DNA of 64,000 nucleotides. Origin: Nocardia sp. NBC_00565 (GTDB taxonomy: Bacteria > Actinomycetota > Actinomycetes > Mycobacteriales > Mycobacteriaceae). Shown one piece after another: positions 28,901-64,000 of this stretch (the first letter of the stretch is position 1; every line of letters begins with the position of its first letter). Made by a program: the position numbers and the translations under genes. The DNA is taken from assembly GCF_036345915.1 (NCBI RefSeq), contig NZ_CP107785.1, forward strand, positions 5,704,001-5,768,000, written 5' to 3'. The notes under the pieces are model-generated. The model had not been told where the DNA came from, searched no databases, and saw nothing but the letters and a program-made list of their open reading frames with translations.

Positions 28901-31900
28901 GCCAGCACCTGCGCCAGTCCATCACGATCGGCGACATCGCACGCGACGAACTCGACCTCGGCACCCAGACGCTGCAACTCCATTCGCAATTCGGCAGCAG
29001 CAGGACCGGACTCGCCGCGCCGGCTCAACAACAACAGGTGCCGAACACCCTGTGTGGCGACCAGGTGCCGGGCGAACAACCCACCGAGCAGACCACTGGC
29101 ACCGGTGATCAGAACAGTATCGTCCGGGTCGAAAGAGATAGTCGCCGAAGCGGTTTCGGTGGAGACAGCCGAGGTGGAATCGACACGGGCCAGCCGCGCG
29201 ATGTGTACTTGCCCATTACGCACGGCCACCTGAGGTTCGGCCGCGGCCACGATCGCGCCCAGCGGCGCACCGAGTTCGGAATCGGTGTCGAGCAACAAGA
29301 TTCGGCCAGGATTTTCCGCCTGTGCGGAACGAACCAGACCACACACCGCCGCACCGGCCAGGTTCGTGATGTCTTCCCCGGCTACCGAGACAGCACCGCT
29401 GGTGCGGATTACGAGGACCGATTCGGTGCACCGATCCTGCGCAGTCCAGGACTGGAGGACCTCGAGAACCTCGTGCGTCGCAGCGTGGATGGTGGCGGGA
29501 TCATTACCCGACGGGCAGTCCAGAACCACGACCTGTGGAACCACCTCGTCACCGAGATCTGCCCATCCCACCACTGACCCTTTCGAGCGACCAGACAAGT
29601 AGTCGCTAGCGGCGGTTTCGGCCTCGGACACCGAGATCGGCGTCCAACCGACCTGGAACAGAGCGGTACGGGCAATGGGTGTGCCTGCCGTGAGTTGTGC
29701 GGGATCGATCGGCCGGGAAGCCAGCTGCCGCACGGTCGCCACCGGGGCGCCCGTCGGGTCCGCGAGATCCAGAGCGACACCGTGTTCACCGATACGGGTG
29801 AGCCGAACACGCAACGCGTCGGCCCCGGCCGCATGCACGGTGACACCGGACCACTCGAACGGCAACGCCGGCCCGGCCCCCGCCGCAGGCTTGTCGTCGG
29901 CGAATCGCAAGGCATGCAAAGCGGCGTCGAGCAGCGCCGGATGCACACCGAACCGTTCCGCCTCGGATCGGGCCTGCTCGGGCAATTCGACCTCGGCGTA
30001 GACCCCGTCCGCTGCGCGCCACACCGACCGCAGCGCCTGGAACACGGGACCGTAGTGATAGCCCTGCGCATCGAGGGAGTCATAGACACCATCGATATCG
30101 ACCGCGGTCGCTCCGACCGGCGGCCACTGCACCAGATCCACAGCCGCGCTATCAGATCCGGACGCGAGCACGCCTTCGGCGTTCAGCGTCCACGACCGCG
30201 ACGAATCGACATCATCATCGGGGTGGGAGAAGATTCGCACCCCGCGACGGCCCGCGCTGTCCTCGCCACCGACGACAACACGCACCGCGACCCCTGCCGA
30301 CTCCGACAGCACCAGCGGCGCCCGCAGAACCAGCTCATCCAGGACCGAGCAGCCCACCCGCTCCCCGGCGTGCATGGCGAGTTCGACAAGACCGGTGCCA
30401 GGGAACAACACGGTGTCCATAACCCGGTGATCGGCCAGCCATGGATGCGTTTGCAGCGACAATCTGCCACTGACAGAGACCACATCGGAGTCCGGCTGCG
30501 ACAGCACCGCCGAAACCAAGGGATGTCCGGTAGCCACCAGGCCCATCGCCCGAGCGTCACCACTACCAGCGGACCCTTCGGCCATCCAATAGCGCCGGCG
30601 CTGGAAAGCGTAGGTGGGCAAGTCGATTCGCTGGGCTCCGGTGCCGGCGTAGCAACCGGCCCAGTCCACCTCGGCGCCGGAGACGAACAACCCGGCCACC
30701 CCACCCAACACCGTGGACGGATCGGCATGGCCTCGACGCGCCAGCGCCACCACCGCCGCAGTCGCGGCCGCCGCCCTGTCGTCGAGGGTCTGGGCGACCA
30801 TCGGGGTCAGTACCGCATCGGGCCCGACCTCGGCGAACCGGGACACACCCATACTTGCCATCGCGGCGACCGCATCGGCGAACCGCACCGTGTCACGGAC
30901 CTGACCGACCCAATACGACGGATCACGCATCTCATCGGTGACGCGGGCACCAGTCACCGTGGACACCAACGGGAGGCTCGGCCGAGCGAACGCCAAACCC
31001 TCTATCGCCGAAGCGAATTCGGCTAGCATCGGCTCCATCAACACCGAATGAAAAGCATGCGACACCCGCAACCGATGCGTACGCCAACCACGCTCGACAC
31101 ACACCTCGACGACAGCGGCGACATCGTCCTCGACACCCGAGAGCACCACCGACGACGGACCATTGACCGCCGCGACCGACACCCCACCAACCAGCAACGG
31201 CAGCACATCGGCCTCCGACGCACCGACAGCCACCATCGACCCACCCGTCGGCAGCGCCTGCATCAACCTGCCCCGCGCCGCCACCAGCACACACGCATCC
31301 GCCAGCGACAACACCCCGGCCACATGGGCAGCAGCGATCTCTCCAATCGAATGACCCGCCACGACATCCGCACGGACACCCCAAGATTCGAGCAGCCGGA
31401 ACAACGCCACCTCGAACGCGAACAACCCCGCCTGCGCGAACACCGTCGCATCGACCAGGTCATCGCTCGCCAATGCCGAATCCAGCGAAACCGACTGCCC
31501 CAGCAATGGATTCAGGCGGGAGACGATCCCGTCGAAATGCTCGGCGAACACCGGGAATGCCGCGTGTAGCTCAGTAGCCATATCCGCCCACTGCGCACCC
31601 TGACCGGAGAACACCAGACCCGTCGAGCCCGCCACCACACGACCGCACACCACACCCGGAACGGACTCGGCGCGACCCAGCGCTTGTGTGCCGGCCCGAA
31701 GGCCGTCGCGTTCGGGTGACAGCACCACTGCCCGGTGGTCGAACAACACTCTCGAAGTTGCGAGCGAGAAGCCGATATCGATCGGGTCGTGGTCGTCGGC
31801 ATGCGATGCCAGACGCCCAGCCTGATCAGCAAGAGCCTGCTCACTGCGTGCCGAGACCACCCATGGCAGCACGCCACCGGCCGGGACGGTCTTGACCACC

Positions 31901-34900
31901 GGCACCGGAGCCGGGTCCGCTACCGGGGCTTGTTCGACGATGAGGTGGGCGTTGGTGCCGCTGAGTCCGAAGGAGGACACACCGGCACGACGCGGTCGAT
32001 CCACCTCCGGCCACGGCACCGACTCGGACAGCAACCGGATGTGGCCTTCGTTCCAGTCGACTTTGGTGCTGGGCTGATCGACATGCAGGGTTTGGGGCAG
32101 CACGCCGTGCTGCATCGCCATCACCATCTTGATCACACCACCCACACCGGCGGCGGCTTGCGCGTGACCGATGTTGGATTTCAACGATCCCAGCCACAAC
32201 GGACGATCCGGGTCACGATCCTGGCCGTAGGTCGCCAGCAACGCCTGCGCCTCGATCGGATCACCCAAAGTGGTACCGGTGCCATGGGCTTCGACCGCAT
32301 CGACGTCCACCGCCGAGACCCCGGCGTTGGCCAAAGCCTGTCGGATCACCCGCCGCTGCGAGGGACCATTGGGCGCGCTGAAACCATTGGAGGCACCGTC
32401 CTGATTGACCGCCGAACCGGCGATCACCGCGAGAACCTGATGACCATTGCGGCGAGCGTCGGACATCCGCTCCAACACCAGGACACCGGCACCCTCGGAC
32501 CAGGCGACACCATCGGCCGCATCGGCGAAGGATTTACACCGCCCGTCCGGCGCCAATCCCCGCTGCCTGCTGAACTCGAGGAACATCTCCGGTGTCGCCA
32601 TCACCGCCACGCCACCGGCCAACGCCAGATCACACTCGCCCGACCGCAATGACTGCGCGGCCAAATGCATTGCCACCAACGACGACGAACACGCCGTGTC
32701 GACGGTGACCGACGGCCCTTCCAGGCCGAAGACATACGACACCCGGCCGGAGACCAAACTCCCGGCGGCCCTGCCCTGCGCGTAGTCGTGGTACATCACA
32801 CCGGTGAACACGCCGGTCGAACTGCCACGCAACACAGCCGGATCCACACCGGCACGCTCCAACGCCTCCCACGACACCTCCAGCAACAACCGCTGCTGCG
32901 GATCCATCACCGCGGCCTCGTTCGGGCTGATCCCGAAGAAGTCCGCGTCGAACTCGGCCGCCGAATACAGGAACCCGCCGCGACGTGTGTAGGTCTTGCC
33001 CGCCTTACCGGGTTCGGGGTCGTAGATGCCCTCGATGTCCCAGCCTCGATCCACCGGCAACTCACCGGTGGAATCGGCCCCCGAGACGACCAGACGCCAC
33101 AGATCCTCCGGCGACGCGACACCACCGGGGAAGCGGCAGCCCATCGCCACCACCGCGATCGGCTCGTCGTCGGCTCGGACCCGGCTGACCGCGAGCTCAT
33201 CGACGGCCCCGGTGCCGGTGAGCTGGGAATCGATGAAGTCGGCAACGATCTGCGGGTTGGGTTGATCGAAAATGAGGGTGGCGGGCAATTGCAGACCGGT
33301 CGCGGCATTGAGCTTGTTGCGGAACTCGATAGCGCTGAGCGAGTCGAACCCGAGCTGCTGGAACGCTTGATCGGGTTCAACCGCATCGACGGAGGCGTGC
33401 CCGAGGATTTCGGCAGCTACCGAGCGAACGAGGTCGAGCAGGGCGCGCTTGCGATCGGTATCAGAGAGGCCGGCCAGCTTCTGCGCAAATGCCTGACCTG
33501 CTGGGGTTCGAGTATTCCGACGCACAGGGATCGGTGCGATCGCGCGGACCAGGGCCGGGATCTGCTCGCCCCGGGTTCGAAGCACGGCAGGCTCGATCCG
33601 TAGCGCCACCAACTGGGCGGTATCGGTGGCTATCGCCGCGTCGAACAGCGCCAGACCCTCGGCCTCGGACAGCGGCGGGAAGCCCTGCCTGCGCATCCGA
33701 TCGAAGTCGTCCTCGGACAGCTCCGCGCCGAGCCCGCTCGATCTCGCCCAGAGTCCGTAATCCAGGGAGGTCGCGGGCAGTCCCAGGCTGTTTCGATGGG
33801 CGGCGAGGGCGTCGAGGAAGACATTCGCCGCGGCGTAGTTGGCTTGACCGGCGGCCAGAACCAGCCCACCCGCGGAAGACACCAACACGAACAACGACAA
33901 CGAGTGATCGCGGGTGAGTTCGTGCAGATGCCACGCCGCATCGACCTTGGGCCGGAACACATGATCGATCCGGTCCGGCGTGATCGACTCGATCACGCCG
34001 TTATCGGCGGTTCCTGCCGCATGCACCACACCCACCAGCGGACGCTGGGCCGGGATGGTATCCAGCAGTGCCGCCAGTGCGTCCCGATCGGACACATCGC
34101 ACGCGGCAATGGTGACCTCGGCACCGAGCTCGACCAACTCCGCACGCAGTTCTGCAGCGCCAGGAGCATCGAGGCCACGGCGAGAGGTCAGAAGTAGATG
34201 GCCCACACCGTGTTCGGTCACAAGATGGCGAGCGATCACCGCGCCCAGACCACCGGTACCACCGGTAATCAGCACGGTGCCAGGCTCGGACAGCCGAACG
34301 ATCGCGCCGGGTGCGTGACGGGTCAAGCGTGGCACGAACACGCTCGTACCCCGCAGCGCAGCCTCCGGCTCCGCCGCAGCAGCCGCTGCCACGGTCGCGA
34401 CAGAGACCGGGTCACGGTCCTGATCCAGGTCGTCCTGATCGAGGTCGAGAAGCTGGAATCGCCCCGGGTGTTCAGCCTGCGCGGCACGCAGCAGCCCCCA
34501 CACCGGCGCCTGATCCAGGCGCACCTGCTCGGAGTCGGCAGTGGTCACCGCTTGTCTGGTCAGCACAACCAAACGCGAACCGGCGAAACGAGTTTCAGCC
34601 GCCCAACGCTGGACGGTGTCGAGGACCTCGGCTACGACCTGCCGCGCGGCCTGCGGCGGCGGACCGTCGTGGCGGGAGCACTCGAGCAACACGATGTCAG
34701 GAACAACCGAATCGGGAGTCGCATCGAGATCGATGATCAACGCCGCGAGATCGCGATAGTGCCGCACTCCAGCAGAGCTCTGGTCCCCACCGAGCACCGC
34801 CACGCGGTGCGGCTCGACACTCACCGACGACGACAACGAAACAGCGACCCAATCGACACCGAACAAGGCCTGCGCTACCCGGTCGGCGCCCAGACGCTCG

Positions 34901-37900
34901 GCCGACACCGGCCGCGTAACCAGAGCGCCTACCGACAGCACCGGCCGGCCCTGCTCATCGGCCATCTGCACGGCGAATCTGTTGCCTTGCAGCACGATAC
35001 GAACCCGCACCGCGGCGGCACCGGCCGAATGCAGCACCACCCTGTTCCAGGTGAACGGCAGCGCCGGGAAGCCCTCGCCACCGCCGCGAAGACCGTGAAC
35101 TATCCCGGCATGCAAGGCCGAGTCGAACAATGCCGGGTGGATCCCGAAATCCTCGGCTTCCCGCGCATCGCTCAGAGCGACCTCGGCGAACAACTCATCG
35201 CCGCGTTGCCACGCCGCCTGCAAACCCTGGAAGAACGGGCCGTACCCGTACCCGACATCGAGCAGCTCGTCATAAACCCCATCGATGTCCAGCCGTTGCG
35301 CACCGGCCGGAGGCCAGGAAGTGAGGTCGAAATCAGCCACCACCTCGCCCGGGGCGAGAACACCCTCGGCGTGGAGAACCCACGGCCCCTCGCTCGCCTG
35401 CCGGGAATGGACACTCAACCGTCGACGACCAGCCTCATCGGCGGCGGCCACCACGACCTGTACCGAGACACTGCCGTCGGACGGCAAGGTCAACGGGGTG
35501 TGCAGAACGAGCTCGTCCACCACAGGGCAGCCCAGCAGACCACCGACGTAACCGGCCAGCTCGACAAACCCGGTGCCCGGCAGCAACACGGTGCCGAGCA
35601 CGCTGTGGTCGGCCAGCCATTCCACCGAGTCCACCGACCAACGGCCCGTGAAACTCACTCCACCCGAATCCGGGTGCGGCACAATCGCACCCAGCAACGG
35701 ATGATCCACCACATCCAGCCCTACAGCGGTGACCCCACCCAGCTCAACTCCCAGCCACGACTGGGCCAGCATCTGCCTGGCATCGAGCCAGAACCGCACG
35801 TGTTGGAAAGCGTAGGTGGGCAAGTCGATTCGCTGGGCTCCGGTGCCGGCGTAGCAACCGGCCCAGTCCACCTCGGCGCCGGAGACGAACAACCCGGCCA
35901 CCCCACCCAACACCGTGGACGGATCGGCATGGCCTCGACGCGCCAGCGCCACCACCGCCGCAGTCGCGGCCGCCGCCCTGTCGTCGAGGGTCTGGGCGAC
36001 CATCGGGGTCAGTACCGCATCGGGCCCGACCTCGGCGAACCGGGACACACCCATACTTGCCATCGCGGCGACCGCATCGGCGAACCGCACCGTGTCACGG
36101 ACCTGACCGACCCAATACGACGGATCACGCATCTCATCGGTGACGCGGGCACCAGTCACCGTGGACACCAACGGGAGGCTCGGCCGAGCGAACGCCAAAC
36201 CCTCTATCGCCGAAGCGAATTCGGCTAGCATCGGCTCCATCAGCACCGAATGGAAAGCGTGTGAGACCCGCAATCGATGCGTGCGCCAACCACGCTCGAT
36301 ACATGCCTCGACGACAGCGGCGACATCGTCCTCGACACCCGAGAGCACCACCGACGACGGACCGTTGACCGCCGCGACCGACACCCCACCAACCAGCAAC
36401 GGCAGCACATCGGCCTCCGACGCACCGACAGCCACCATCGACCCACCCGTCGGCAGCGCCTGCATCAACCTGCCCCGCGCGGCCACCAGCACACACGCAT
36501 CCGCCAGCGACAACACGCCCGCCACATGGGCAGCAGCGACCTCACCGATCGAATGACCCGCCACGGCATCCGCACGGACACCCCAGGACTCGAGCAGCCG
36601 GAACAACGCCACCTCGAACGCGAACAACCCCGCCTGCGCGAACACCGTCCGATCCACCAGGTCATCGCTCGCGAATGCCGCGCTCAGCGAAACCGGTTGT
36701 GCCAGTAGCGGATCCAACTCAGCGACGATCGCGTCGAAATGCTGGGCGAACACCGGGAACGCATTGCGTAGCTCGGCGGCCATACCGGCCCACTGTGCAC
36801 CCTGACCGGAGAACACCAGACCCGTCGAGCCCGCCACCACACGACCGGACACCACACCCGGAACGGTTTCGGCGCGACCCAGCGCCCGCACTCCCGCGAG
36901 CAGACCATCACGACCCTCGGCTACGACCACAGCACGATGCTCGAAAACACTGCGTGTGGACGCCAGCGAGAAACCGATATCGGCCGGGTCCGCGTCGTGA
37001 TCGTCCACATGTGACGCCAGGCGGACAGCCTGACCCGCAAGAGCCTCACCACTACGCGCCGAAACCACCCACGGCAGCAACCCACCGGCCGGAGCGGGCT
37101 CGACCACCGGCAGCGCAGCCTGCTCCGCCACCGCAGCCGGTGCTTGTTCGACGATGACGTGTGCGTTGGTGCCACTGATACCGAACGACGACACACCGGC
37201 ACGTCGCGGCCGATCTGTCACCGGCCACGGCACCGGCTCGGTCAGCAACCGCACATGCCCGTCGGACCAGTCGACCTTGGTGCTGGGCTGATCCACATGC
37301 AGCGTCCGCGGCAGCACGCCGCGCCGCATCGCCATCACCATCTTGATGACACCGCCCACGCCCGCTGCGGCCTGGGCGTGACCGATATTGGATTTCAACG
37401 ACCCCAGCCACAGTGGACGATCCGGATCTCGGTCTTGGCCGTAGGTGGCGAGCAGCGCTTGGGCTTCGATCGGGTCGCCGAGGGTGGTGCCGGTGCCGTG
37501 GGCCTCGACGGCGTCGACCTCGACCGGTGTGATTCCCGCATTCGCCAGCGCCTGCCGGATGACCCGCCGCTGGGAGGGACCGTTGGGCGCGGTCAAACCA
37601 TTCGAGGCACCATCCTGATTCACCGCCGAACCGGCGATCACAGCGAGAATCTGATGACCGTTGCGTTGGGCGTCGGACAACCGCTCCAACACCAATACAC
37701 CGGCACCTTCGGACCAGCCGACACCGTCGGCCGCGTCGGCGAAGGACTTGCACCGACCGTCCGGCGACAGCCCCCGCTGCCGGCTGAATTCCACAAACGT
37801 TTCCGGCGAAGCCATCACCGCCACACCACCGGCCAACGCCAGATCACACTCACCCGACCGCAATGACGCCGCGGCCGAATGCATCGCGACCAGCGACGAC

Positions 37901-38490
37901 GAACATGCCGTATCCACGGTGACCGACGGCCCTTCCAGGCCGAACACATACGACACTCGACCCGAAGCGATAGATCCTGAGTTCGCATTGGCCGGATAGT
38001 CGTGGTACATCATGCCGACCCATACACCGGTCCGGCTTCCCCGCAGCGAACCAGGATCGACACCGGCGCGCTCGAACGCCTCCCACGAGGTCTCCAACAA
38101 CAGAAATTGTTGCGGATCCATCATCGCGGCTTCGTTGGGGCTGATCCCGAAGAACGCAGGATCGAACTCGCCCGCAGAATGCAGGAAGCCACCTTCGCGG
38201 GTGTAAGTGGTGTTCGGTGTTTCGCCGGTTCGATCGTAAAGACGATCGGTATCCCAACCTCGATTTATCGGGAACTCCGACGTCGCGTCGGTCCCATCCG
38301 AGACCAACTTCCAGAGGTCCTCAGCAGAGCTGACACCACCCGGGTACCGACACGCCATACCCACGATCGCAATAGGTTCGCGAAGGGCTGCGTCGAGCTT
38401 GCGGTTGCGGGCACGCAACCGCTCGGTCTCTTTGAGTGAGACACGTAGCGCCTGGGCGAGCTTCTGAGTATTATCGTCGGGCTTCGTCAT
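22138..38490 (-). CDS. PKS-C: three-module type I polyketide synthase with terminal thioesterase
   Basis: A 5450-residue giant enzyme that performs the last three extensions and release. It starts with a coiled N-terminal docking helix (residues 8-35; KLAQALRVSLKETERLRARN) that should bind the C-terminus of PKS-B. Three KS-AT-DH-KR-ACP modules follow (about 37-1760, 1775-3475, 3492-5160), then a thioesterase (about 5200-5450). Active-site residues: KS Cys 196, 1934 and 3652; AT Ser 647, 2381 and 4099 (GHSIGE) with malonyl-type HAFHS; DH His/Asp 962/1123, 2688/2855 and 4399/4567; KR Tyr 1552, 3272 and 4961; ACP Ser 1717, 3433 and 5126; TE Ser5308-Asp5336-His5429. There is no enoylreductase. 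The 36-bp repeat is inserted once, at about residues 2961-2973. The start ATG has GGAG 11 bases upstream, 16 bases after the PKS-B stop. DNA near both ends of the gene is somewhat less GC-rich. Confidence 0.96.
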   Translation of the reverse strand: MTKPDDNTQKLAQALRVSLKETERLRARNRKLDAALREPIAIVGMACRYPGGVSSAEDLWKLVSDGTDATSEFPINRGWDTDRLYDRTGETPNTTYTREGGFLHSAGEFDPAFFGISPNEAAMMDPQQFLLLETSWEAFERAGVDPGSLRGSRTGVWVGMMYHDYPANANSGSIASGRVSYVFGLEGPSVTVDTACSSSLVAMHSAAASLRSGECDLALAGGVAVMASPETFVEFSRQRGLSPDGRCKSFADAADGVGWSEGAGVLVLERLSDAQRNGHQILAVIAGSAVNQDGASNGLTAPNGPSQRRVIRQALANAGITPVEVDAVEAHGTGTTLGDPIEAQALLATYGQDRDPDRPLWLGSLKSNIGHAQAAAGVGGVIKMVMAMRRGVLPRTLHVDQPSTKVDWSDGHVRLLTEPVPWPVTDRPRRAGVSSFGISGTNAHVIVEQAPAAVAEQAALPVVEPAPAGGLLPWVVSARSGEALAGQAVRLASHVDDHDADPADIGFSLASTRSVFEHRAVVVAEGRDGLLAGVRALGRAETVPGVVSGRVVAGSTGLVFSGQGAQWAGMAAELRNAFPVFAQHFDAIVAELDPLLAQPVSLSAAFASDDLVDRTVFAQAGLFAFEVALFRLLESWGVRADAVAGHSIGEVAAAHVAGVLSLADACVLVAARGRLMQALPTGGSMVAVGASEADVLPLLVGGVSVAAVNGPSSVVLSGVEDDVAAVVEACIERGWRTHRLRVSHAFHSVLMEPMLAEFASAIEGLAFARPSLPLVSTVTGARVTDEMRDPSYWVGQVRDTVRFADAVAAMASMGVSRFAEVGPDAVLTPMVAQTLDDRAAAATAAVVALARRGHADPSTVLGGVAGLFVSGAEVDWAGCYAGTGAQRIDLPTYAFQHVRFWLDARQMLAQSWLGVELGGVTAVGLDVVDHPLLGAIVPHPDSGGVSFTGRWSVDSVEWLADHSVLGTVLLPGTGFVELAGYVGGLLGCPVVDELVLHTPLTLPSDGSVSVQVVVAAADEAGRRRLSVHSRQASEGPWVLHAEGVLAPGEVVADFDLTSWPPAGAQRLDIDGVYDELLDVGYGYGPFFQGLQAAWQRGDELFAEVALSDAREAEDFGIHPALFDSALHAGIVHGLRGGGEGFPALPFTWNRVVLHSAGAAAVRVRIVLQGNRFAVQMADEQGRPVLSVGALVTRPVSAERLGADRVAQALFGVDWVAVSLSSSVSVEPHRVAVLGGDQSSAGVRHYRDLAALIIDLDATPDSVVPDIVLLECSRHDGPPPQAARQVVAEVLDTVQRWAAETRFAGSRLVVLTRQAVTTADSEQVRLDQAPVWGLLRAAQAEHPGRFQLLDLDQDDLDQDRDPVSVATVAAAAAAEPEAALRGTSVFVPRLTRHAPGAIVRLSEPGTVLITGGTGGLGAVIARHLVTEHGVGHLLLTSRRGLDAPGAAELRAELVELGAEVTIAACDVSDRDALAALLDTIPAQRPLVGVVHAAGTADNGVIESITPDRIDHVFRPKVDAAWHLHELTRDHSLSLFVLVSSAGGLVLAAGQANYAAANVFLDALAAHRNSLGLPATSLDYGLWARSSGLGAELSEDDFDRMRRQGFPPLSEAEGLALFDAAIATDTAQLVALRIEPAVLRTRGEQIPALVRAIAPIPVRRNTRTPAGQAFAQKLAGLSDTDRKRALLDLVRSVAAEILGHASVDAVEPDQAFQQLGFDSLSAIEFRNKLNAATGLQLPATLIFDQPNPQIVADFIDSQLTGTGAVDELAVSRVRADDEPIAVVAMGCRFPGGVASPEDLWRLVVSGADSTGELPVDRGWDIEGIYDPEPGKAGKTYTRRGGFLYSAAEFDADFFGISPNEAAVMDPQQRLLLEVSWEALERAGVDPAVLRGSSTGVFTGVMYHDYAQGRAAGSLVSGRVSYVFGLEGPSVTVDTACSSSLVAMHLAAQSLRSGECDLALAGGVAVMATPEMFLEFSRQRGLAPDGRCKSFADAADGVAWSEGAGVLVLERMSDARRNGHQVLAVIAGSAVNQDGASNGFSAPNGPSQRRVIRQALANAGVSAVDVDAVEAHGTGTTLGDPIEAQALLATYGQDRDPDRPLWLGSLKSNIGHAQAAAGVGGVIKMVMAMQHGVLPQTLHVDQPSTKVDWNEGHIRLLSESVPWPEVDRPRRAGVSSFGLSGTNAHLIVEQAPVADPAPVPVVKTVPAGGVLPWVVSARSEQALADQAGRLASHADDHDPIDIGFSLATSRVLFDHRAVVLSPERDGLRAGTQALGRAESVPGVVCGRVVAGSTGLVFSGQGAQWADMATELHAAFPVFAEHFDGIVSRLNPLLGQSVSLDSALASDDLVDATVFAQAGLFAFEVALFRLLESWGVRADVVAGHSIGEIAAAHVAGVLSLADACVLVAARGRLMQALPTGGSMVAVGASEADVLPLLVGGVSVAAVNGPSSVVLSGVEDDVAAVVEVCVERGWRTHRLRVSHAFHSVLMEPMLAEFASAIEGLAFARPSLPLVSTVTGARVTDEMRDPSYWVGQVRDTVRFADAVAAMASMGVSRFAEVGPDAVLTPMVAQTLDDRAAAATAAVVALARRGHADPSTVLGGVAGLFVSGAEVDWAGCYAGTGAQRIDLPTYAFQRRRYWMAEGSAGSGDARAMGLVATGHPLVSAVLSQPDSDVVSVSGRLSLQTHPWLADHRVMDTVLFPGTGLVELAMHAGERVGCSVLDELVLRAPLVLSESAGVAVRVVVGGEDSAGRRGVRIFSHPDDDVDSSRSWTLNAEGVLASGSDSAAVDLVQWPPVGATAVDIDGVYDSLDAQGYHYGPVFQALRSVWRAADGVYAEVELPEQARSEAERFGVHPALLDAALHALRFADDKPAAGAGPALPFEWSGVTVHAAGADALRVRLTRIGEHGVALDLADPTGAPVATVRQLASRPIDPAQLTAGTPIARTALFQVGWTPISVSEAETAASDYLSGRSKGSVVGWADLGDEVVPQVVVLDCPSGNDPATIHAATHEVLEVLQSWTAQDRCTESVLVIRTSGAVSVAGEDITNLAGAAVCGLVRSAQAENPGRILLLDTDSELGAPLGAIVAAAEPQVAVRNGQVHIARLARVDSTSAVSTETASATISFDPDDTVLITGASGLLGGLFARHLVATQGVRHLLLLSRRGESGPAAAELRMELQRLGAEVEFVACDVADRDGLAQVLANVPAGHPLTGVFHMAGVLDDGSIGSLTADRMDTVLRPKVDAALHLHELTADLPLKAFVLFSSAAGAFGNAGQGNYAAANSYLDALAAHRRASGRSGQSFAWGLWDGGMAGELSDVDRHRMSRSGLLPLSQEQGLALFDAATGMDTATLVLARLDLNAMRSPGVVVPPLFAGLIPARRKAASAAATALRARLTNTLDSERLGVLVEIVRGQVASILGHQNASAIAADKAFNELGFDSITAVEFRNALNTVTGLRLPATLVFDYPTPQALAKYLADEFTGTSQDIVVTASRSVDDDPIAVVGMACRYPGGVTSPEELWELVRIGEDAVSTLPVDRGWDINGIYDPEPGRAGKSYTREGGFLHTAADFDAEFFGISPNEATMMDPQQRQLLETTWEALERAGVDPAVLRGSSTGVFTGVMYHDYAQGSGSSATGSLVSGRVAYTLGLEGPAVSVDTACSSSLVAMHLAAQSLRSGESDLALAGGVAVMATPETFVEFSRQRGLSPDGRCKSFADAADGVGWSEGAGVLVLERLSDARRNGHQVLAVIAGSAVNQDGASNGLTAPNGPSQRRVIRQALANAGVAPTEVDAVEAHGTGTTLGDPIEAQALLATYGQDRAPDRPLWLGSLKSNIGHAQAAAGVGGVIKMVMAMRHGVLPRTLHVDQPSTKVDWTEGHIRLLTEPVPWPETDRPRRAGVSSFGISGTNAHVIIEQAPMPVVAPEPVAETVPAGELLPWVVSARSGAALTGQADRLTSHVGEHDPIDIGFSLASTRAVFEHRAVIVADNRDGLLTGVRALADGVQAPGVVTGRAVLGSTGLVFSGQGAQWAGMATELRAAFPVFAEHFDGIVARLNPLLGQSVSLDSALSTEDLVDATVFAQAGLFAFEVALFRLLESWGVRADVVAGHSIGEIAAAHVAGVLSLADACVLVAARGRLIQALPTGGSMVAVGASEADVLPLLVGGVSVAAVNGPSSVVLSGVEDDVAAVVEACVERGWRTHRLRVSHAFHSALMEPMLAEFASAIEGLTFTRPRIALVSTVTGARVEHEMSEPSYWVGQVRDTVRFADAVAAMAGMGVARFAEVGPDAVLTPMIAQTLETATTIPLTRRNNADPATLLTGLARLHVTGSTVDWTSYYTGTGATKTDLPTYSFQHRRFWTTGQLHTGEAYTLGLRSTEHPLLGAVVAQPESGGVRFTGRLSTATHPWLADHDVLGTVLLPGTGFVELAVHAGDQVDCPELEELTLRAPLVLQGHGGVQIQVILGDGDETGRRRLDIYSRKDDDDPSFPWTHHAEGAVSPGRETDQPEGWADFAQWPPVGAAAVRLDGAYDTLADNGYNYGPAFQGLVAVWRRGEDIFAEVALPEQTSTRGYGVHPALLDAAMHALSFSLPQGVDEDAERPTLVPFAWSSVRVHADGARRVRVRLTWLNPGTVALTMADSGGAAVLSVQSLALRPLSLELLSASTRSGHDALYEITWRPGPELRSVAGVSWAEWSAAESSSVLLFRPPVDGVEVPVRLRTALHATLGVIQEFLSEERYATRTLAVITDSTADPAAAAVWGLVRAAQAENPGRIVLIEAPAAITTDHLVAAANTGEPELAVHAEGTRVPRLVRAGSPESERPAPWDSERTVLITGGTGGIGSHLAKHLVSEHGVRHLMLVGRRGPAAAADLIEELDALGARVRVAACDVTDRNSLRDLLASIPAAHPLGAIVHVAGVAHNGLVDTLTPEQIDYSLGAKADAAWYLHELTRAAGLSAFVMISSVAGSILPAGQGGYAAANLFLDALATYRHAEGLPATSLAYGLWDIDTGLSQWLSQADRQRMRRQGLPPLAADKALELFDAALSSERPVHVPVEIDLAALRARDAVPALLSDLAKRAGRRQSTGIQDAGALRRRLAQLSESEQEQWLRTHILENAARLLGHESADALDPERDFLESGFDSLAAMELRTALNASTGLTLPTAAIFDHKTPAALARYLQKELTADSRGHEHVGDDDSLYGMFRGAVSNGQAGKGFALLKAAAELREQFSAAHELDRLPVPARLAAGPALPRIICLTPPLATGGAHQYARIASHLRTARDVLALPPIGFSTGEPVPTTPTAALEGLARCVLEAAQGDPFVLLGYSSGGLLAYLVTEYLEAAGGPAPAGVVMLDTYKVHDDGEWLLRAMAEHMVSNEATFGRFDPARLTGMGRYVELLQEMAPSSVVTPTLFIQCAQSFLGSSSDRMDWQAEPWDATHTVVSLQADHFTILEDGSADAAEAIEGWLES
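22990..28025 (-). other. PKS-C module 3: KS-AT-DH-KR-ACP, last extension module
   Basis: KS about 28025-26770, AT 26465-25450, DH 25410-24540, KR 24050-23440, ACP 23215-22990. DH motif HDVLGTVLLP and Asp4567 are intact. The KR reads VAHNG in place of LDDG and GQGGYAAAN in place of xNYAAAN, so it lacks both B-type markers while keeping Ser and Tyr4961. The post-AT linker differs from other modules (TATTIPLTRRNNADPATL), indicating a distinct ancestry from modules 1 and 2. Confidence 0.85.
29573..29608 (-). repeat. 36-bp in-frame repeat, single copy in PKS-C
   Basis: One copy of the 36-base element seen three times at 58034-58141. It is translated [12 protein letters not shown]. On the coding strand AGCGAC and GTCGCT form a 6-bp stem around a 10-base loop. 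Compared with the tandem copies it differs at only about four positions, two of them in the loop. Module 3 of PKS-B, otherwise alike here (TPISVS ... WADLG), lacks it, so it was added in frame. Confidence 0.8.
30602..31040 (-). repeat. Near-perfect internal duplication, copy 1 (post-AT region, PKS-C module 2)
   Basis: These 439 bases match 35804-36242 with no difference that I could find by eye, while sequence on both sides diverges quickly on the left and to a few per cent on the right. They encode the C-terminal third of the AT and its linker. Confidence 0.75.
33230..38380 (-). other. PKS-C module 1: KS-AT-DH-KR-ACP, KR without LDD motif
   Basis: KS about 38380-37150, AT 36820-35795, DH 35705-34880, KR 34280-33700, ACP 33430-33230. 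The DH motif is HSVLGTVLLP, complete. The KR keeps TGGTGGLG, catalytic Ser and Tyr1552 (GQANYAAAN), but the segment that is normally LDDG reads TADNG, and the residue four before the Asn-Tyr pair is Ala rather than Pro. Stereochemical type (A or B) therefore cannot be assigned by the usual fingerprint. It is closely similar to module 2 of PKS-B. Confidence 0.85.
35804..36242 (-). repeat. Near-perfect internal duplication, copy 2 (post-AT region, PKS-C module 1)
   Basis: Partner of 30602-31040 at a constant offset of 5202 bases. Synonymous positions are identical too, so the match is recent and not due to protein-level selection. Confidence 0.75.
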
Positions 38491-54348: not shown

Positions 54349-54352
<4 letters not shown>

Positions 54353-57300
54353 GCTGGGCCAAACTCCTCGTCGATCAGATCCAAAAGTTCACTGTCGGAC
54401 TGGAATTCGAGATCGTCGTATTCACTGTCCGACCACTTGCCGCCCAGGTAGCCGCGCAGGCGCTCGTTGACGCCCCGCAATCCGGCGACGGTTTCGTCGT
54501 TGTCGGCGCCGCTCGCGATAATCCGCTCGAGCAGGGCCTCGAGCCGCGCGATGTCGTCGGGCACCGTCGATGTCGGTTGCGCGGGCGTCGTCACCACGGT
54601 CTGCGCCAGCAGGTAGTCGGCGGCGTCTCCCGCGGTGGGGTAGTCGAATACCAAGGTCGAGGGCAGCGACAGCCCCGTCGACTTCGACAACCGGTTACGG
54701 AACTCGATTCCACCCAGGGAATCGAAGCCGAGTTCGGTGAAGCCGCGTTCGGGTGCGACGTCGTCGGCCGACGCGTAACCCAGCACCGCCGCCACCTGTT
54801 CCCGCACCAACTCCAGGACGACTCCCCGCCGCTTCGCCTCCGCCACACCGTGCAGACGCTCCCCGAGCGAAGGTTCGGCACTCGATGTCGTGGCCGACCG
54901 GGCGCGCGCGCGAACGAACCCGCGCAGCACCGCCGGTACCGGACCGGTATGCGCTTCCAGGCGCAGTTTGTCGGTATCCAGCTGCAACAACGCCGACACC
55001 GGTTCGGCCGTGGTCAGCGATTCGTCGAACAACCGCAGGCCGTCGGTGCGGTCCAGCGGGGCCAGGCCCATTCGGTCCAATCGACCCATGGCACTGCGAT
55101 CCAAAGCGCCGGTCATGCCGATGTCCTGCTGCCACGGACCCCAGGCGAGTGCGAGTGCCGGTAGTCCGTCAGCGCGGCGTTGCATCGCGAGGGCGTCCAG
55201 GAAGCTGTTCGCGGCAGCGTAATTCGCTTGCCCCGGTGAACCGATCATTCCGGCAATCGACGAGAACATCACGAACGCGGACAGATTCATGTCGCGAGTG
55301 AGCTCGTGCAGATACCACGCCGCCTCGGCTTTGGGAGCGAACACCCGATCGACCTGGTCACCGGTGAGCGTGTGGAACGTACCGTCGTCGAGCACGCCCG
55401 CGGTGTGCACGACACCGGTGAGTGGGTGCTCCGCGGGAATGCCCGACAGCAGATCCCGAAGCGCGTCGCGGTCGGTGACATCGCAGGCGGCGATCCGCAC
55501 CTCGGCGCCGGATCGAGACAGTTCCGCCGCGAGTTCCGTTGCGCCGTCCGCACGCTCGCCACGGCGAGATACCAGCAGTAGCCGTCGCACACCGTGCGCG
55601 GTGACCAGGTGCCGGGCCAGCAGCGCGCCCAGTCCCCCGGTCCCGCCGGTGATGAGCACGGTCCCGGACCCGAACGAAACCTTCTCGGCCGCAGCGGATG
55701 TCACCGCCTCCAGCCGCGGTGCCAGGACGCGGTCGCCCCGCACTGCCACCTGCGGCTCTCCGGTCGCGATCGCGACTCGGATCGCCTCGGCCGAAATATG
55801 CTGCGCACCACCGGATTCGTCGACGTCGAGCAGCACGATCCGCTCCGGATATTCGGTCTGAGCGCTACGCAGCAGCCCCCATACCGCAGCCGATGCGGTA
55901 TCCGGTGCCTCATCGGCCAGGGCCGCGGCACGTCCGGTCACCACAACGAGCTGCGACCGTGCGAATCGCTCGTCGGCCAGCCAGCCGTTCACCGTGTGCA
56001 GGGCGGCCTTCACCCGATCACTCGCGGACGGCATCGAATCATCGTGCAGCGCAGCGGCTTCGGACCAGACGATAACGTCCGGGACGGTCGGAGCCGAAGC
56101 GAGCGCCGCCAGATCCGAATACCGCTCGTCGATTCCGGCCACGTGCGCGGCTCCGAGCACGGCCGCACTCCCGGTCGGGGTGAATCCGTCGGGTATCCCG
56201 ACCGCCGCCCAGCGCAACCCATACCGCGCCGCACGTCCACCCGCCAGATTGGCGCGGAACTGCTGGACGTCGTAGGAGCGCATGACCACTTCGTCGATCG
56301 AAACCACCGGAGTTCCGTCCTGGTCGACGGCCACGACACTGATCGCCTCACCGCTGCGCTGGATGGCCATCACCCGCAACGTCGTGACCTTGGACGTGGT
56401 GTGGAATTGCGTTGCGCCCCACCGGAACAAGAGTTTGCCCTCAGCGGGATTGCGCTTGTCATCGGTCCACACCAAACAGACAAGTCCGGCATGTAGCGCC
56501 ATATCGAACAGCGCCGGATGCAGCTGGAACCGATCGGCCGGGATTTCCTGGTTCAGGGTGATCTCGGAGAAGATCGTGTCACCACGGCGCCACGCGGCGT
56601 CGATGCCGATGAACGAGGCACCGTATTCCAGTCCGGCGACACGCGCCACCTGGGCCGGAATCCAGTCGGGGTCCACTGGTTCGGCGTCGACCGGCGGCCA
56701 CGGCTCGTTGCGCAGCATGTCCACGAGTCCGATGTCGATCAGCTGTTGACCACTCAATACACCACTGGCGTTGCGCGTCCACTCGCTGTCGGCGGCGCCG
56801 GTGAGGCGGTAGTGGAACGTGAACGATCGACGTCCCACGGGGTCCGGTTCCCGCACCAGTACTTGCAGTTCGACATCGCCCTGCGCCGGAGGGAGGATCG
56901 GCGCCTCGAGGGTGAACTCTTCGACAGCGTCGCATCCGATCCGCCGACCCGCGACCAGCAGCATCTCCATGAGCGCGGCACTCGGGACGAGCACCACACC
57001 GTAAGTGGTGTGGTCGCTGATCCATGGATGGGTGCGCAGCGAAAGCCGCCCCGTGAACAGCCACTCGTCGCGGTCGGCCACTCGCACCACATCGGTGAGC
57101 AGCGGGTGTTCCGACGCATTCCGGGGCTCCCCGAGGCCGGGTTCGAGCCAGTACCGCCGATGTTCGAAGGCATAGGTGGGCAAGGCGACTCGTGACATCC
57201 GGTCGGTGAACAGCCCATCCCAGCCGACAGCCACCCCGGCCGTGTGCGCCTGGCCGAGCATCGTGAGGAACTGCTCGACCTCGTCGTGCTCCCGGCGGGC

Positions 57301-60300
57301 CGCCGCGGCGACCACGGATCGAGCCTCGATATCCGCGGGCAGCGTGTGCCGCGTCATCGCCGCGAGCACCGCATCGGGTCCGACTTCGAGGAAGCGCCGC
57401 ACACCCGACGCCACCAGCGTCTCGACACCGGGCGCGAAACGCACCGCGGCGCGCACCTGCGATACCCAGTAGCCGGGATCCAGGATCTCGTCACCGGCGA
57501 TCCGGCCGGAGATGTTGGATACCAACGGAATCCGTGGGGCGTGGAATGTTACTCCCGCCGCCGCGGTCTCGAACTCGGCCAGCATCGGCTCCATCCGATG
57601 GGAATGGAACGCATGCGACACCCGCAGCCGGCTCGTCTTGCGATCCGACTCGGTGAACTGCCGATCGATTTCGTCGATGGCGTCCTCGTCACCCGAGACC
57701 ACCACGGCCGCAGGCGCATTCACCGCTGCCAAGGACACCCGATCACCGAATCCGGCCATCGCCGCGCCGACTTCGGCCTCGGACGCGGCGATCGCGAGCA
57801 TCGCGCCGCCCGCCGGCAGCGCCTCCATCAGCCGTCCTCGTGCCGCGACCAGCGCGCAGGCGTCTTCCAGTGACCACACACCGGCCACATATGCCGCGGC
57901 GAGTTCACCGATCGAGTGCCCGATCAACACATCCGGGACAACTCCGAATGACTCCAACAGCCGATACAACGCCACTTCGAACGCGAACAGCGCGGGCTGG
58001 GTCAATCGTGTCCGATCCAGAATCCCGGTCTGCGCTGACCCATTCGAGCGACCTGACAAGCAGTCGCAAGCTGACCCTTTCGAGCGACCTGACAAGCAGT
58101 CGCAAGCTGACCCGTTCGAGCGACCTGACAAGCAGTCGCTAGCGGTGACTCCCTGATCGTCGATCAGCTGTCCGGTAAACATGACTTGCTTCAGGGAACA
58201 TCCGAGTAGCGGATCGAACTGGGCACACACCTCGTCCAGTGCCGCGGCGAATACCGGGAAGGCCTCGGCGAGACCCGCGCCCATACCGACCCGCTGCGCG
58301 CCCTGACCGGTGAACAGGAAGGCGGTCTTCGCGGAGCCCACCTCGCCGGAAACCACTCCGGCCGAGGAGGATCCGGCGACCAGCTTCGCCAGCCGCGCCA
58401 GCAGTTCGTCGCGATCACCACCCAGGACCGCCGCCCGCGACTCGTGCTGCGCACGGGTCGTCGCGAGCGAATACGCCACATCCGCCGGATCGGCGTCGGG
58501 GTGATCGATGAGCCACTGCTGCAGTTTCGCCGCCTGTGCCCGGAGGGCGGTCTGATTCTTGGCCGACACCAGCCAGGGCACCACCGTGCGTGGGCGGTCG
58601 GTAACCGGTGCCGAGACGACCGACCGTAGGGCGGGCGCTTCCTCGAGGATCGCGTGCGCGTTGGTGCCGCTGACACCGAACGACGACACGCCGGCTCGAC
58701 GGACCCGTCCGCCGGTCGGCCACGGCTGCGCCTCGGTCAACAGCTGGACATCGCCCGAGGACCAGTCCACGTGTGGGCTCGGCTCGTCCGCATGCAGTGT
58801 CTTCGGCAGGGTTTCGTATCGCAGCGCTTGCACCATCTTGATGACGCCACCGACACCCGCCGCGGCCACGGTGTGGCCGATATTCGATTTGATCGATCCG
58901 ATGCGCAGCGGTTGTTCCGCACGGTCCTGCCCATACGCCGCGATCAGCGCCTGGGCTTCGATCGGATCACCCAACGACGTCCCGGTACCGTGCGCCTCCA
59001 CCGCGTCGATATCCGACGGCTCGAGCCCGGCATTCGCCAACGCCGCCGCGATCACCCGCTCCTGTGACGGACCATTCGGCGCGGTCAAGCCGTTACTCGC
59101 GCCGTCTTGATTCACCGCCGTTCCGCGCACGAGGGCGAGGACATTGTGCCCCAGTCGCCGGGCGTCGGAGAGCCGCTCGAGCACCAGCACACCGACGCCC
59201 TCGGAGAAGGCGACGCCATCGGCCGCCGCGGAGAACGCCTTGCACCGTCCATCGGGCGAGAGACCGCGCTGCCGCGCGAAATCGACGTAGAGATAAGGAC
59301 TGGCCGCGACCGTCACACCGCTCGCCAGCGCCAGCGCGCTCTCCCCCTGGCGCAGCGCTTGGCAGGCCAGATGCAACGAGACCAGCGACGACGAACATGC
59401 GGTGTCCACGGTGACCGCCGGGCCTTCGAGACCGAGGACGTAGGCCACCCGTCCGGAAATCACGCTGCTCGTGGTACCGGTGAGCCGGTAGCCCTCCAGG
59501 TCACCGGCCACCCGATCGACGTAGCCCGAGTAGCCCGCTCCGGCGTACACCCCGGTGTCGCTGCCCCGCAACGACGTCGGGTCGATGCCCGCGTCCTCCA
59601 GAGCGTCCCAGGACACCTCCAACAGCAGACGTTGCTGCGGGTCCATCGCGGACGCCTCGCGTGGACCGATCCCGAAGAATCCCGGGTCGAAATCGCCTGC
59701 GTTGTAGAGGAATCCGCCGCGTCGGGTGTAGACGGTACCGGGCTTGTCCGGATTCGAATCGAACAGCCGCTCCAGATCCCAGCCCCGATCCGATGGGAAA
59801 TCGCCGGTCGCGTCGGTTCCGGAGGCAACGAGATCCCACAGCTGGTCCGGTGATTCGACGCCGCCGGGGAACCGGCAGGCCATGCCCACGATCGCGATCG
59901 GCTCGTCCGCCCGGACTCGGCGGACAGCCTTCTTGACGGGTTCGCCCGCCGTCGGCTCGACGCGGGATCGCACCAGCTTCGCCACCGCCGCCGGGGTCGG
60001 ATGATCGAATACCAGCGTCGACGGCAACTGCAGGCTTGTGGCCTTGCCGAGCCGGTTCCGGAATTCCACGCCACCCAGCGAATCGAAGCCGATCTCGTCG
60101 AAGCGCTGGTCCGGCCGGATGTCGGCGGCCGAATCATGCCCCAACACCGCCGCCGCCTGTGCCAGTACGACCTCCAGCACCACCTCGTTACGCCGTGCTT
60201 GCGGCACACTCGCCAACCGGGCGGCCAGCGAGCCCGCCGCCGCGGCGACCGCCGCCTGTTGCGTCGGGCGCGTCGAGCGCCGCACGAATCCGCGCAGCAC

Positions 60301-63300
60301 CGCCGGAACCGCGTCGACCTCGGAGTCGCGACGCAGGACACTCGCGTCGAACCGGATCGGAGCCAGACGCGCATCCGAGTGGATGAGCGCCTCGTCGAAA
60401 AGGCGTGTCCCTTCAACACTTTCGAGCGGACCCAGACCCAAGCGATCCCACCGCGCGAGGGCGGCGCGGTCCAAGCCACCGGTCATACCGCTGCCCTGGT
60501 TCCACGGCCCCCACGCCAGCGATGTGGCGGCCGATCCCGCGGCCCGTCGCCGCTGCGCCAACGCGTCCAGGAAACCGTTCGCCGCGGCGTAGTTGCCCTG
60601 CCCCGACGACCCCAGCACCGTCGCGATCGACGAGAACACCACGAACGCGGACAGATTCAGCCCACGAGTCAGCTCGTCCAGATGCCAGGCCCCGTCGACC
60701 TTCGGTGCCAACACCCGATCCACCTGGTCACCGGTCAGCGACTCGACCGTGCCGTCGTCGAGAATTCCCGCGGTGTGCACGACAGCGGTCAGTCCGGCGT
60801 CGGGATCGATCGTCGCCAGCAGGTTCCGCACCGCGTCGCGGTCGGCGACATCGCACGCGACGACCCGAGCCTCGGCCCCGGCCTGCGCCAATTCGGCAAC
60901 CAGCTCGGCGGCGCCGGGTGCTTCGGGTCCCCGACGCGACGTCAGTACCAGACTGCGCACACCGTGCTCGGCGACGAGATGACGGGCGAACAACGCACCC
61001 AGTCCACCCGTACCGCCCGTGATCAACACGGTCCCTTCCCCGAACGACGGCCCCATCGCCGGGTCCGCGGAGGCGGACGCGCGCACCATCCGAGGAACCA
61101 GAATCTCCTCGCCACGGACCGCGGTCTGCGGCTCGCCCGATCGCACCACCGCCGCGATACGGTCCGCATCGAGCGGCCGGGCCGGATCCTCGTCGACGAG
61201 GACGAATCGTTCCGGATGCTCCGACTGCGCACTGCGCACCAATCCCCACACCGCCGCCGCGGCCGGATCCGGAGCCTCATCGGGCAACCCCACGGCGCCT
61301 GTCGTCACCACGACCAACCGGACATCGGACAGACGTTCCTCGGCCAGCAAGGACTGCACCGTCGCCAACGCGCCGTGCACGCTTGCCCGCACCGATTCCG
61401 GACCACCGACGGCCGAACCTGCCACGATTGGCTCGGTCGCCCGCCACACCACCACACCGGGAATACCTTCGGCCACAACGACATCGGCGACCGACGCGTA
61501 TTCCGTGTCTATCCCCGCCACTGCCGTGTTCCCGAGTACCGCCAGGGACGGTCGACCGACTCCCGCGGCCGACTCCGCGGTGGGCTCCCAGCGCACCTGG
61601 TACAGGCCCGCCTCGTCACCGACGAGACTGCTCCGGAATTCCTTCACGTCATATGGACGCATCACCACCGCGTCGACCGACACGATCGGGTTGCCGTCCG
61701 GATCGACAGTCGCGACCGAGACGGTCTCGGGTCCGGTCGCGACCGCAATGACCCGAAGCGACGTCACCTCGGCCGGCCACTGGCCGCCATCCGTTGCCGA
61801 CCTGTGGAAACGGGCACCACCCCACCGGAACAACAACCTGCCGGTATCGGGATCGGAATCCGCATCGCGCCACAGCAAACCGGAGAACCCCGCGTGCATG
61901 ACCATATCCAGCAGGGCGGGGTGCAGGTCGTGCCGTCCCAGCTCCGGCGCCGCCTCGGTGTCCAGCACGATCTCGGAGAAAACCGTGTCGTCGCGTTGCC
62001 ACGCGGCACGCACACCGACGAACGCCGGACCGTACTCGAGCCCGGCGAGCTTCGCAATCCGCTCCGGAAGCCCCGCGCTGTCCACGACCTCGGTATCGAC
62101 GGGCGGCCATTCCTCCTCGCGCAGCCGCGACAACAACGCCGAATCGCCATCCCACTCGGCCCCGAACGCACCGGTGGCGTTGTGGATCCATTCGGCATCT
62201 GAGGACTTGCGGAAATAGAACTCGAACGGACGCCGCCCGGACTCGTCCGCCGCCTGCACCAATACCTGCAACTCGACCTCGTCGTCGGCGGTCGGCAGAA
62301 TCGGCGCTTGCAAGGTGAGCTCCTCGACCACCCCGCAACCGATCCGACGGCCCGCGACGAGAAGGAACTCGATGAACGTCGCGCTCGGCACAACCACCAC
62401 GCCATGGGTCATGTGATCGGCGATCCACGGATGAGTCCGCAACGAGAACCGGCCGGTCAACAACCATTCGTCGGTACCCGCCAACCCGACCACGCCCGTC
62501 AGGATCGGATGATCCGTCGACGGCGAAGCGTCCACGGCGCCCGACAACCAGAAACGGCGATGCTGGAAGGCATAGGTAGGCAACGGAACCCGACGCGCCT
62601 CACGACCCGCGAACCACGAACGCCAGTCCACCCGCGCACCCGCGACATGAACCTGCGCCAAGGAAGTTACGAACTGCTCCACCTCATCGACCGACCGCCG
62701 CGAAGTGGCCGCCACCGACGACACCGACTCGACTTCCGGGTTCTCGGCCAGACATTGGCGAGTCATCGCGGCCAGCACCGCATCCGGTCCGATCTCCACG
62801 AACCGCCGCACACCAGCCTCGACCAGGACATCGATCCCCGGCGCGAACCGGACGGACCCTCGCACCTGCTCGACCCAGTACTCGGGATCGGTCAGCTCGG
62901 CAGCGACCACGACCGCCGAAACATTCGACACGATCGGCAACGATGGCTGCCGATACGTCAATCCTGCTGCGACAGACCGGAACTCGGCCAACATCGGATC
63001 CATCCGCGCCGAATGAAAGGCATGGCTGACCCGCAACCGGTTCGTCTTCACACCCTCGGCGGACAGCAGCCGCTCGATCTCACCGATCACATCGACGTCC
63101 CCGGACAACACCGTCGACGACGGACCGTTCACCGCCGCGATCGACACACGGTCGGCGAAATCGGCGACGATATCGACAACTCGTCCTGCACCGATCGCCA
63201 CCGCGAGCATCGCGCCGCCCACCGGCAATGCGCCCATCAACCGGCCCCGGGCCGCCACCAGCGCACACGCATCCTCGAGCGACCACACCCCGGCCACATA

Positions 63301-64000
63301 CGCCGCCGCCAACTCACCGATCGAATGCCCGATCAGCAGATCCGGTGTCACACCGAATGACTCGATCAACCGGAACAACGCCACCTCGAACGCGAACAAG
63401 GCCGGTTGGGTGAATTCGGTCCGATCCAACACACCCTCGGCGTCGGCGAACATCAGCTCCTTCAAGGACAGCGCGGAGCTCCTCGAGGGGTGGTGGTCAG
63501 GCGACGGGTGGACCCGGCCCAACAACGGATCGAACTCCGCACACACCTCGTCCAACGCGGCCGCGAACACCGGGAACGCCCGATACAGGCCCGCACCCAT
63601 ACCAACCCGCTGCGCACCCTGACCCGTGAACAGGAACGCCGTCCTGTCAGAACCCGCCGTCCCCTCGATCGTGCCGTGCGAACCGGCGGCCACATCAGCC
63701 AGACCGGCCAGCAGTTCGTCCCGGTCACGCCCCACGACCGCACCGCGCCGGTCCAACTGCGCCCGCGACGTCGCCGAGGAATACGCGATATCCCACACAT
63801 CTACGTCGGGATCGTCGATCAACCACTGTCGCAGTCGATCCGCCTGGACACGGAGGGCTGCGTCGGACTTGGCCGATATCAACAACGCAACGATATCGGC
63901 CACCACGGTTTTCGCGGCCGGTGCCTGCTCGGCCCCGTCTGCGGACGTCACGATGACCGGATGGGCGGGCGCTTCCTCGAGTATCAGGTGGGCGTTGGTA
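54349..64000 (-). CDS. PKS-A: type I polyketide synthase (5' end outside the window)
   Basis: The frame is open to the window edge. Its first visible codons read [11 protein letters not shown], the end of a ketosynthase, so the GTG at 63951 is not the true start. Visible parts: end of KS, AT, DH, KR, ACP (module X), then a complete KS-AT-DH-KR-ACP (module Y) and a C-terminal docking tail ([20 protein letters not shown], then [14 protein letters not shown]) for handover to PKS-B. Key codons: AT Ser 63322-63324 and 57913-57915, DH His 62413-62415 and 57010-57012, KS Cys 59395-59397, KR Tyr 60589-60591, ACP Ser 54718-54720. Both ATs have HAFHS, predicting malonyl-CoA. The second AT contains three tandem copies of the 36-bp repeat. 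The stop overlaps the PKS-B start by ATGA. Confidence 0.95.
54610..59915 (-). other. PKS-A module Y: KS-AT-DH-KR-ACP, AT interrupted by a repeat array
   Basis: KS about 59915-58650 (DTACSSS, EAHGTGT, NIGH), AT 58330-57150, DH 57110-56260, KR 55670-55070, ACP 54810-54610. DH motif [10 protein letters not shown] with Asp in LFDMALHAG. The KR has LDDG and [10 protein letters not shown], the full B-type set. Between [11 protein letters not shown] and [13 protein letters not shown] the AT carries 36 extra residues from three tandem repeat units. Confidence 0.87.
58034..58141 (-). repeat. Three tandem 36-bp in-frame repeats inside an AT domain
   Basis: Units at 58034-58069, 58070-58105 and 58106-58141 differ at two or three positions. 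The coding strand translates as (C/S)DCLSGRS(N/K)GSA three times. Each unit contains GCGAC and GTCGC as a 5- or 6-bp stem around TGCTTGTCAG. Five of the six reading frames through the unit are free of stops, which lets it enter genes without breaking them. The same element is found once at 29573-29608. The equivalent AT region in PKS-B module 1 has only a short loop. Confidence 0.88.
59960..64000 (-). other. PKS-A module X: (KS)-AT-DH-KR-ACP, ketosynthase mostly outside
   Basis: AT about 63650-62560, DH 62510-61640, KR 61040-60430, ACP 60180-59960. DH motif [10 protein letters not shown] with the second-motif Asp in LLDMVMHAG. The KR has LDDG, with [11 protein letters not shown]. The AT has an extra loop of about 14 residues ([15 protein letters not shown]) before SLKELMF that the other ATs lack. 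Confidence 0.85.

Follow-up and report, generated by a model that had tools for sequence, protein, structure and literature searches.

The 36-bp repeat of the window (the whole stretch of 64,000 nucleotides analysed here) very probably belongs to a mobile repeat, non-autonomous, dispersed and about 38 bp long, which inserts at new sites in the genomes of Nocardia and Rhodococcus, grows into arrays and is selected against when it lies inside genes. Movement of an element too small to hold any gene, and its absorption by proteins, are open to direct test in this system. Filled and empty sites are available in relatives at varied distances, and the hosts include phosphoglycerate kinase (PGK), PanC and the ribosome factor RimP. 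The window contains the following features, two of which are modular polyketide synthase (PKS) genes.

58034–58143, plus strand: the three-unit array (3 × 36 bp and 2 bp more), read in frame within the acyltransferase (AT) domain and antisense to the PKS gene
58034–58069, plus strand: unit 1, with left end GCTGACC and core ATTCGAGCGACCTGACAAGCAGTCGC
58070–58105, plus strand: unit 2, from the direct-repeat finder
58106–58141, plus strand: unit 3, with terminal TCGCTA; the sequence that follows, GCGGTGAC, can be aligned to the empty sites
54349–63951, minus strand: modular PKS gene with the three-unit array (ORF, translation and Pfam matches)
29574–29610, plus strand: single unit of the same family that adds a net 36 bp to the second PKS gene without breaking its frame, with the PS-DH match on one side and the SpnB_Rossmann match on the other
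22138–38490, minus strand: modular PKS gene with the single unit (ORF and Pfam matches)

The first-pass annotation of this DNA had described three head-to-tail 36-bp units in the AT domain. Tandem Repeats Finder bears this out (58034–58143, period 36, 3.1 copies, 95% matches), and a direct-repeat finder gives three copies at a spacing of 36, the units being 95–100% like the first. The array falls within a match to Pfam Acyl_transf_1 (E 1.1e-48) and is read in frame in the ORF at 54349–63951, each unit giving 12 residues and the array 36 residues altogether. An AT paralogue was correctly said to be free of the repeats: at the paralogous site in the window, with flanks about 70% alike, the flank matches are separated by 23 nt that contain no unit. 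The count of five stop-free frames out of six has to be revised, as four frames are stop-free between 58034 and 58141, with a single stop in another and six stops in the last. The unit at 29574–29610 in the other PKS gene has the same 36-bp form as the units of the array, and its net length of 36 bp was measured against a paralogue in the window. The best-matching site in the relative G159 is empty of this unit; around the PKS genes, matching between our genome and G159 extends over the cluster only.

Alignment of 30 AT loci (L048–L077) reveals three units in our genome, two units at L049 and L050, one unit at L051 and L052, and none at the other 25, although the orthology of the weaker matches is uncertain. 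The annotation had taken three repeats at the same site in distant orthologues as the sign of an old family feature; among these 30 loci, three units are found in our genome only. The series of zero, one, two and three units would most simply be read as a gain followed by multiplication, with one unit in the ancestor, then two and then three. The array itself is tandem, which would suit an expansion confined to this spot or a long-standing feature of the AT domain. However, with no unit at 25 of the 30 AT loci and many sites elsewhere in the genome, we give this explanation practically no credence.

Our genome (9,711,624 bp, one contig) yields 47 listed matches at E 0.001 or better when searched with the array by BLAST. 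The core of the repeat, TTTCGAGCGACCTGCAAGCAGTCGC (a 25-mer), is found with up to three mismatches at 214 sites, 121 on one strand and 93 on the other, against none for the reversed pattern. Further copies, for which a genome-wide search had been proposed, do therefore exist, and simple local expansion is ruled out by these 214 sites. At least one site is present in 54 of the 150 genomes of the Nocardia sample at the same tolerance. The richest genomes are our own (214 sites), G158 (152), G159 (148), G009 (49), G052 (34), G090 (19) and G141 (19), with fewer sites in G132 (16) and G395 (12). In the sample of the order the core occurs in 5 of 397 genomes (our own, three of the genus and G395), and in the sample of the class, with up to two mismatches, in 2 of 394, both of the genus. 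At least 120 stretches were found in named genomes, and among the matches listed are Nocardia vinacea, N. pseudovaccinii, N. anaemiae, N. vulneris and N. brasiliensis and, outside Nocardia, Rhodococcus maanshanensis and R. oryzae. An origin in phages or plasmids was considered and set aside, as one four-unit array has no match in either collection. Four loci searched against Rfam gave no match at E up to 0.1. Among 61 loci of our genome with the exact core, density drops away from the origin (dnaA at 7.80 Mb), with 27, 13, 14 and 7 loci by distance quarter.

The consensus of the element is about 38 bp long and reads GCTGAYCN-TTTCGAGCGACCTGCAAGCAGTCGC-TAGCG(G). Across 201 arrays, conservation starts at position -12 (GCTGAYCN TTTC), with background to the left of it, and on the right drops from about +7, some six bases past GTCGC (TAGCGG). 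The element contains an imperfect palindrome, GCGAC-c-TGCAAGCA-GTCGC. The unit had been described as hairpin-forming. A short stem of about 6 bp (AGCGAC/GTCGCT) is indeed present, but the consensus folds no better than its shuffles, with z of -0.37 and -0.12 when its strands are folded as DNA and of 0.07 and 0.14 when they are folded as RNA. Little compensatory change is seen among 32 distinct core forms from 295 units. The hairpin, which had been proposed as the driving feature, is not supported in that role and was rejected as a selected feature on the same two grounds. No terminal inverted repeats are present at the ends GCTGACC and TAGCGG.

Orthologous loci with and without the element, a comparison suggested earlier, were both found: at the AT site, in PGK and panC, and at further loci where filled and empty related sites were paired automatically. 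Outside called genes, the net gain per single unit is mostly 34–38 bp, with other lengths of 31, 32, 39 and 43; some net lengths are near zero or negative because the compared site held a decayed copy or a different, longer sequence. For six in-gene arrays (five sites in all, as two of the arrays are in panC) an empty site was available for comparison, and the net lengths are 36, 36, 36, 108, 108 and 144 bp (L017, 36; panC of L027, 108; rimP of L044, 144; panC of L095, 36; the window, 36 and 108). A PGK query with the insert has some match in all 150 genomes, in G131 a marginal one only; in the best 30 matches, which were translated, a 12-residue insert follows directly after NVPLD in 6 and is absent from 24. 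For panC, the best 30 matches include three units in our genome, one in G158 (L351) and none in 28. G159 is close to G158 and its panC lacks the unit, which therefore points to a loss or to two separate insertions. In the panC tail (L350, L351, L353) the unit of G158 is slightly displaced from those of our genome, and separate insertions at one spot are possible.

A unit may stand alone or form part of an array, in which the period is 34–38 bp. After merging, 135 of 216 arrays are single units and the largest has about 11 (11 as counted), the numbers including repeat fetches of one locus. Linkers are near-uniform inside most arrays and often different between arrays, and some are shared by several arrays; TAGCGGCCCCTTTC, for instance, is found at four loci. 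The size of an array differs by up to eight units between close relatives: compared with G159, unit numbers are 5 vs 1 at L158:4319, 9 vs 1 at L170:4063 and 1 vs 5 at L170:6033, within flanks that are 96–98% alike. This pattern of linkers and unit numbers suggests local copying after insertion. Such arrays could also serve as typing markers.

How the element reaches new sites was approached through its target sites. The array linkers had first hinted at a general target-site duplication. For 134 single copies, one measure puts the likeness of left and right flanks at 4.35 against 4.17 after permutation (SD 0.068), about 2.6 SD higher but still exceeded by the highest of 500 permutations, and a second measure shows hardly any difference (3.60 against 3.51, SD 0.074). 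Direct repeats are present at two junctions only, 11 bp at L108 compared with L107 and an 8-bp target repeat at L024. A general duplication is unsupported, although the small excess is there and the two junction repeats are of a kind that duplication could leave. This bears on the explanation of the repeat as a MITE, that is, a miniature element moved by a DDE transposase. The filled and empty sites, the patchy copy number and the two junction repeats fit such an element. However, the ends lack terminal inverted repeats, a general duplication of the target is unsupported, and about 38 bp is less than the roughly 100–200 bp of the elements described in excerpts from PMC2229807, so that we consider a MITE unlikely.

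A second explanation is that a Y1 transposase (TnpA-REP, IS200/IS605) mobilises the repeat in trans through single-stranded DNA, as a REP- or REPIN-like element. REP elements are short, high in copy number, mostly intergenic and imperfectly palindromic. The Nocardia element resembles them in being short, abundant, mainly intergenic (140 of 196 arrays) and an imperfect palindrome, and the lack of support for a general target-site duplication would agree with this route. The Y1_Tnp profile (PF01797) matches in 8 of 20 genomes searched, our own and G159 included, and both of these have open, IS200-sized Y1 genes. In contrast, none of G052, G090, G132, G395, G048 and G095 matched PF01797, as judged with one profile on mostly draft genomes. 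The linked REP-type transposase that the first-pass annotation had proposed to look for was thus not found: the first four of these matchless genomes have 34, 19, 16 and 12 sites of the element. The element also differs from the REP system in its stem of only 6 bp with a fold at shuffle level (z about 0), and in its in-frame gene copies and direct tandem arrays. Its orientation relative to the replication fork shows no significant bias in the 61 loci of our genome with exact matches (36 with, 25 against, p 0.20); an earlier test of replication strand, also non-significant, had used arbitrary cut points. Taken with its supporting points, this evidence leaves a Y1-driven element quite improbable. 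At L218, L219, L220 and L226, open IS200-sized Y1 genes were seen in G019, our genome and G159, and several fragments besides. A gene carried between paired copies 1.8 kb apart was a further candidate, but the genes there belong to a ribosomal operon, judging from their first residues. Copies lie between genes of what we take, from first residues, to be the rplK-nusG-secE region (L199:5558 and 7360, and L200) in G043 and G142.

Because several high-copy genomes gave no Y1 match and no matches were obtained from the phage, plasmid and Rfam searches, we lean weakly towards movement that either needs no enzyme of its own or uses one still to be named. Short single strands might be patched in at replication or repair through very short end homology (GC or GGC). 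Pairs of high identity at L110, L195 and L091 show small losses of target sequence relative to their relatives, GC or GGC is found at the insertion point of several empty sites, and GC stands at both ends of the element. However, GC is common in this DNA anyway, and patching leaves the multiplication of one sequence to 214 sites unexplained. Patching with no dedicated enzyme is therefore a serious possibility, albeit one on which we would not rely. The small target losses and the lack of support for a general target-site duplication may hint that insertion proceeds by patching in a short single strand and not by a cut-and-paste transposase.

The annotation had pictured a multiplied small element colonising coding DNA. 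Its dispersal and its in-frame copies in genes are confirmed, but the copies are mainly intergenic and PKS genes are not the sole hosts. Genes were called with a codon-usage-based caller written for this analysis, which gives a coding fraction of 84%. Once 9 arrays at locus edges had been set aside, 196 remained, of which 140 are intergenic, 30 lie at gene ends and 26 are inside genes. The set consists of loci fetched for holding the element, in which the PKS AT site is counted five times and other orthologues are included, and the 26 arrays represent about 17 distinct sites. Genes are thus avoided (26 of 196 inside, against 84% coding), and a stricter score with unique flanks gives 24 of 193. 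The caller reports only open ORFs and therefore cannot show out-of-frame insertions as inside.

According to family models, in-gene hosts include, besides the PKS AT domain and the PKS region between PS-DH and SpnB_Rossmann, an NRPS, RimP, NuoF, NuoH, a CobW-like GTPase, a lysine/ornithine monooxygenase-like protein, a BTAD regulator, a HadA/ChsH2-like protein, PanC, Lnt, an MmpL3-like transporter and PGK. The in-gene ORFs of L017 and L020 have no Pfam family match, and two in-gene rows (L095:3218 and L172) fall in low-scoring ORFs. Many in-gene positions are termini, linkers or loops, such as the PanC tail and the C termini of RimP and NuoF. The PGK insert, placed against solved structures, is in a loop, and the residues neighbouring it presumably bind substrate; such enzymes are essential in many bacteria. 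Copies with the left end GTGTTG, which are 36 bp long, are inside genes in 10 of 28 cases compared with 14 of 145 for GCTGACC (p 0.001). The copies in PKS and NRPS genes form a natural record of tolerated insertion positions.

The strongly conserved core and the mainly intergenic location could also be expected of a regulatory motif or binding site that is kept by selection and recurs without movement. However, whole units are inserted relative to empty sites, in-frame copies are present within enzymes and arrays reach about 11 units. Divergent spacers hold 55 of 158 copies against 32% of spacer length, which is no clear preference. We therefore regard a stationary regulatory motif as very unlikely. 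Between co-directional genes, 50 copies are oriented against the direction of the genes and 34 with it.

Returning to the mobile repeat, its spread would begin with insertion at a new site and a net gain of mostly 34–38 bp, as the filled and empty sites, the defined ends and the high, patchy copy number indicate. The founder unit would then be copied head to tail on the spot, giving arrays of up to about 11 units; slippage or unequal exchange may be the process, given the arrays and their differences in copy number. Selection would remove most copies that fall in genes, to which the depletion inside genes and the in-frame lengths at the compared sites point. Those whose net length is divisible by three, at 36 per unit, would survive in loops, linkers and termini, each adding 12 residues. 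The PKS array would be one such insertion, most simply with a single ancestral unit and two later steps.

Rickettsia is the best-known host of mobile repeats that lie in frame in conserved proteins; Nocardia offers an actinobacterial case. Excerpts from PMC10969869 and PMC2229807 describe Rickettsia palindromic elements (RPEs) as in-frame insertions of 105–150 bp, those from PMC2229807 add long stem-loops and terminal inverted repeats, and those from PMC10969869 deem an RPE-like process in other prokaryotes conceivable. The comparison with RPEs made in the first-pass annotation holds in part. Like the elements in these excerpts, the Nocardia repeat is small and mobile and lies partly in spacers and partly as in-frame insertions within genes for conserved proteins, of which some orthologues lack it. 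It does not share the size and structure: it is about 38 bp, G+C-rich and tandem-forming, without a strong fold or terminal inverted repeats. By analogy, it acts as a much smaller, tandem-forming counterpart of RPEs without being a member of them. The PARCEL repeats, described in excerpts from PMC2996958 as palindromic repeated coding DNA spread among genes, involve a 25-residue amphipathic motif in ORFs of unassigned function, whereas the Nocardia insert is one of 12 codons in enzymes. In the literature consulted, by titles and abstract openings and mostly without subscription papers, no description of the Nocardia 36-bp element was found, and none by its sequence letters.

The MIRU of Mycobacterium are about 46–101 bp long and occur singly or in variable tandem arrays. 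On this general description, they resemble the Nocardia element as actinobacterial interspersed units, single or in tandem, and differ from it in being longer than about 38 bp.

Taken jointly, these observations allow a broader reading, which we offer tentatively and hold at somewhat short of an even chance. The repeat would be an actinobacterial, protein-invading micro-element, several times smaller than those reviewed, whose 36-bp form is a ready cassette of 12 codons. It would have placed the same few peptides, such as SSDLQAVAS and ASDCLQVAR, in about 16 unrelated genes of the loci fetched, grown in tandem there and moved by short-strand patching without a dedicated transposase, and the 36-bp GTGTTG form would be becoming a coding-adapted subfamily.

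A second repeat family was also seen. It is a long imperfect palindrome, GTTCGCGGCCC...TCTCGCGTCCGAG...CTCGGACGCGAGACGGGCCGCGAAC, present at L107:5363, L281:8277, L294:17796, L300:1841 and other loci. Its hosts are N. vinacea, N. anaemiae, G052, G159 and, judging by the flanks of L034 and L045, our own genome. The 36-bp unit lies inside 11 of 26 distinct copies found by seed and is absent from 15; in the copies compared, it occupies two nearly adjacent places.
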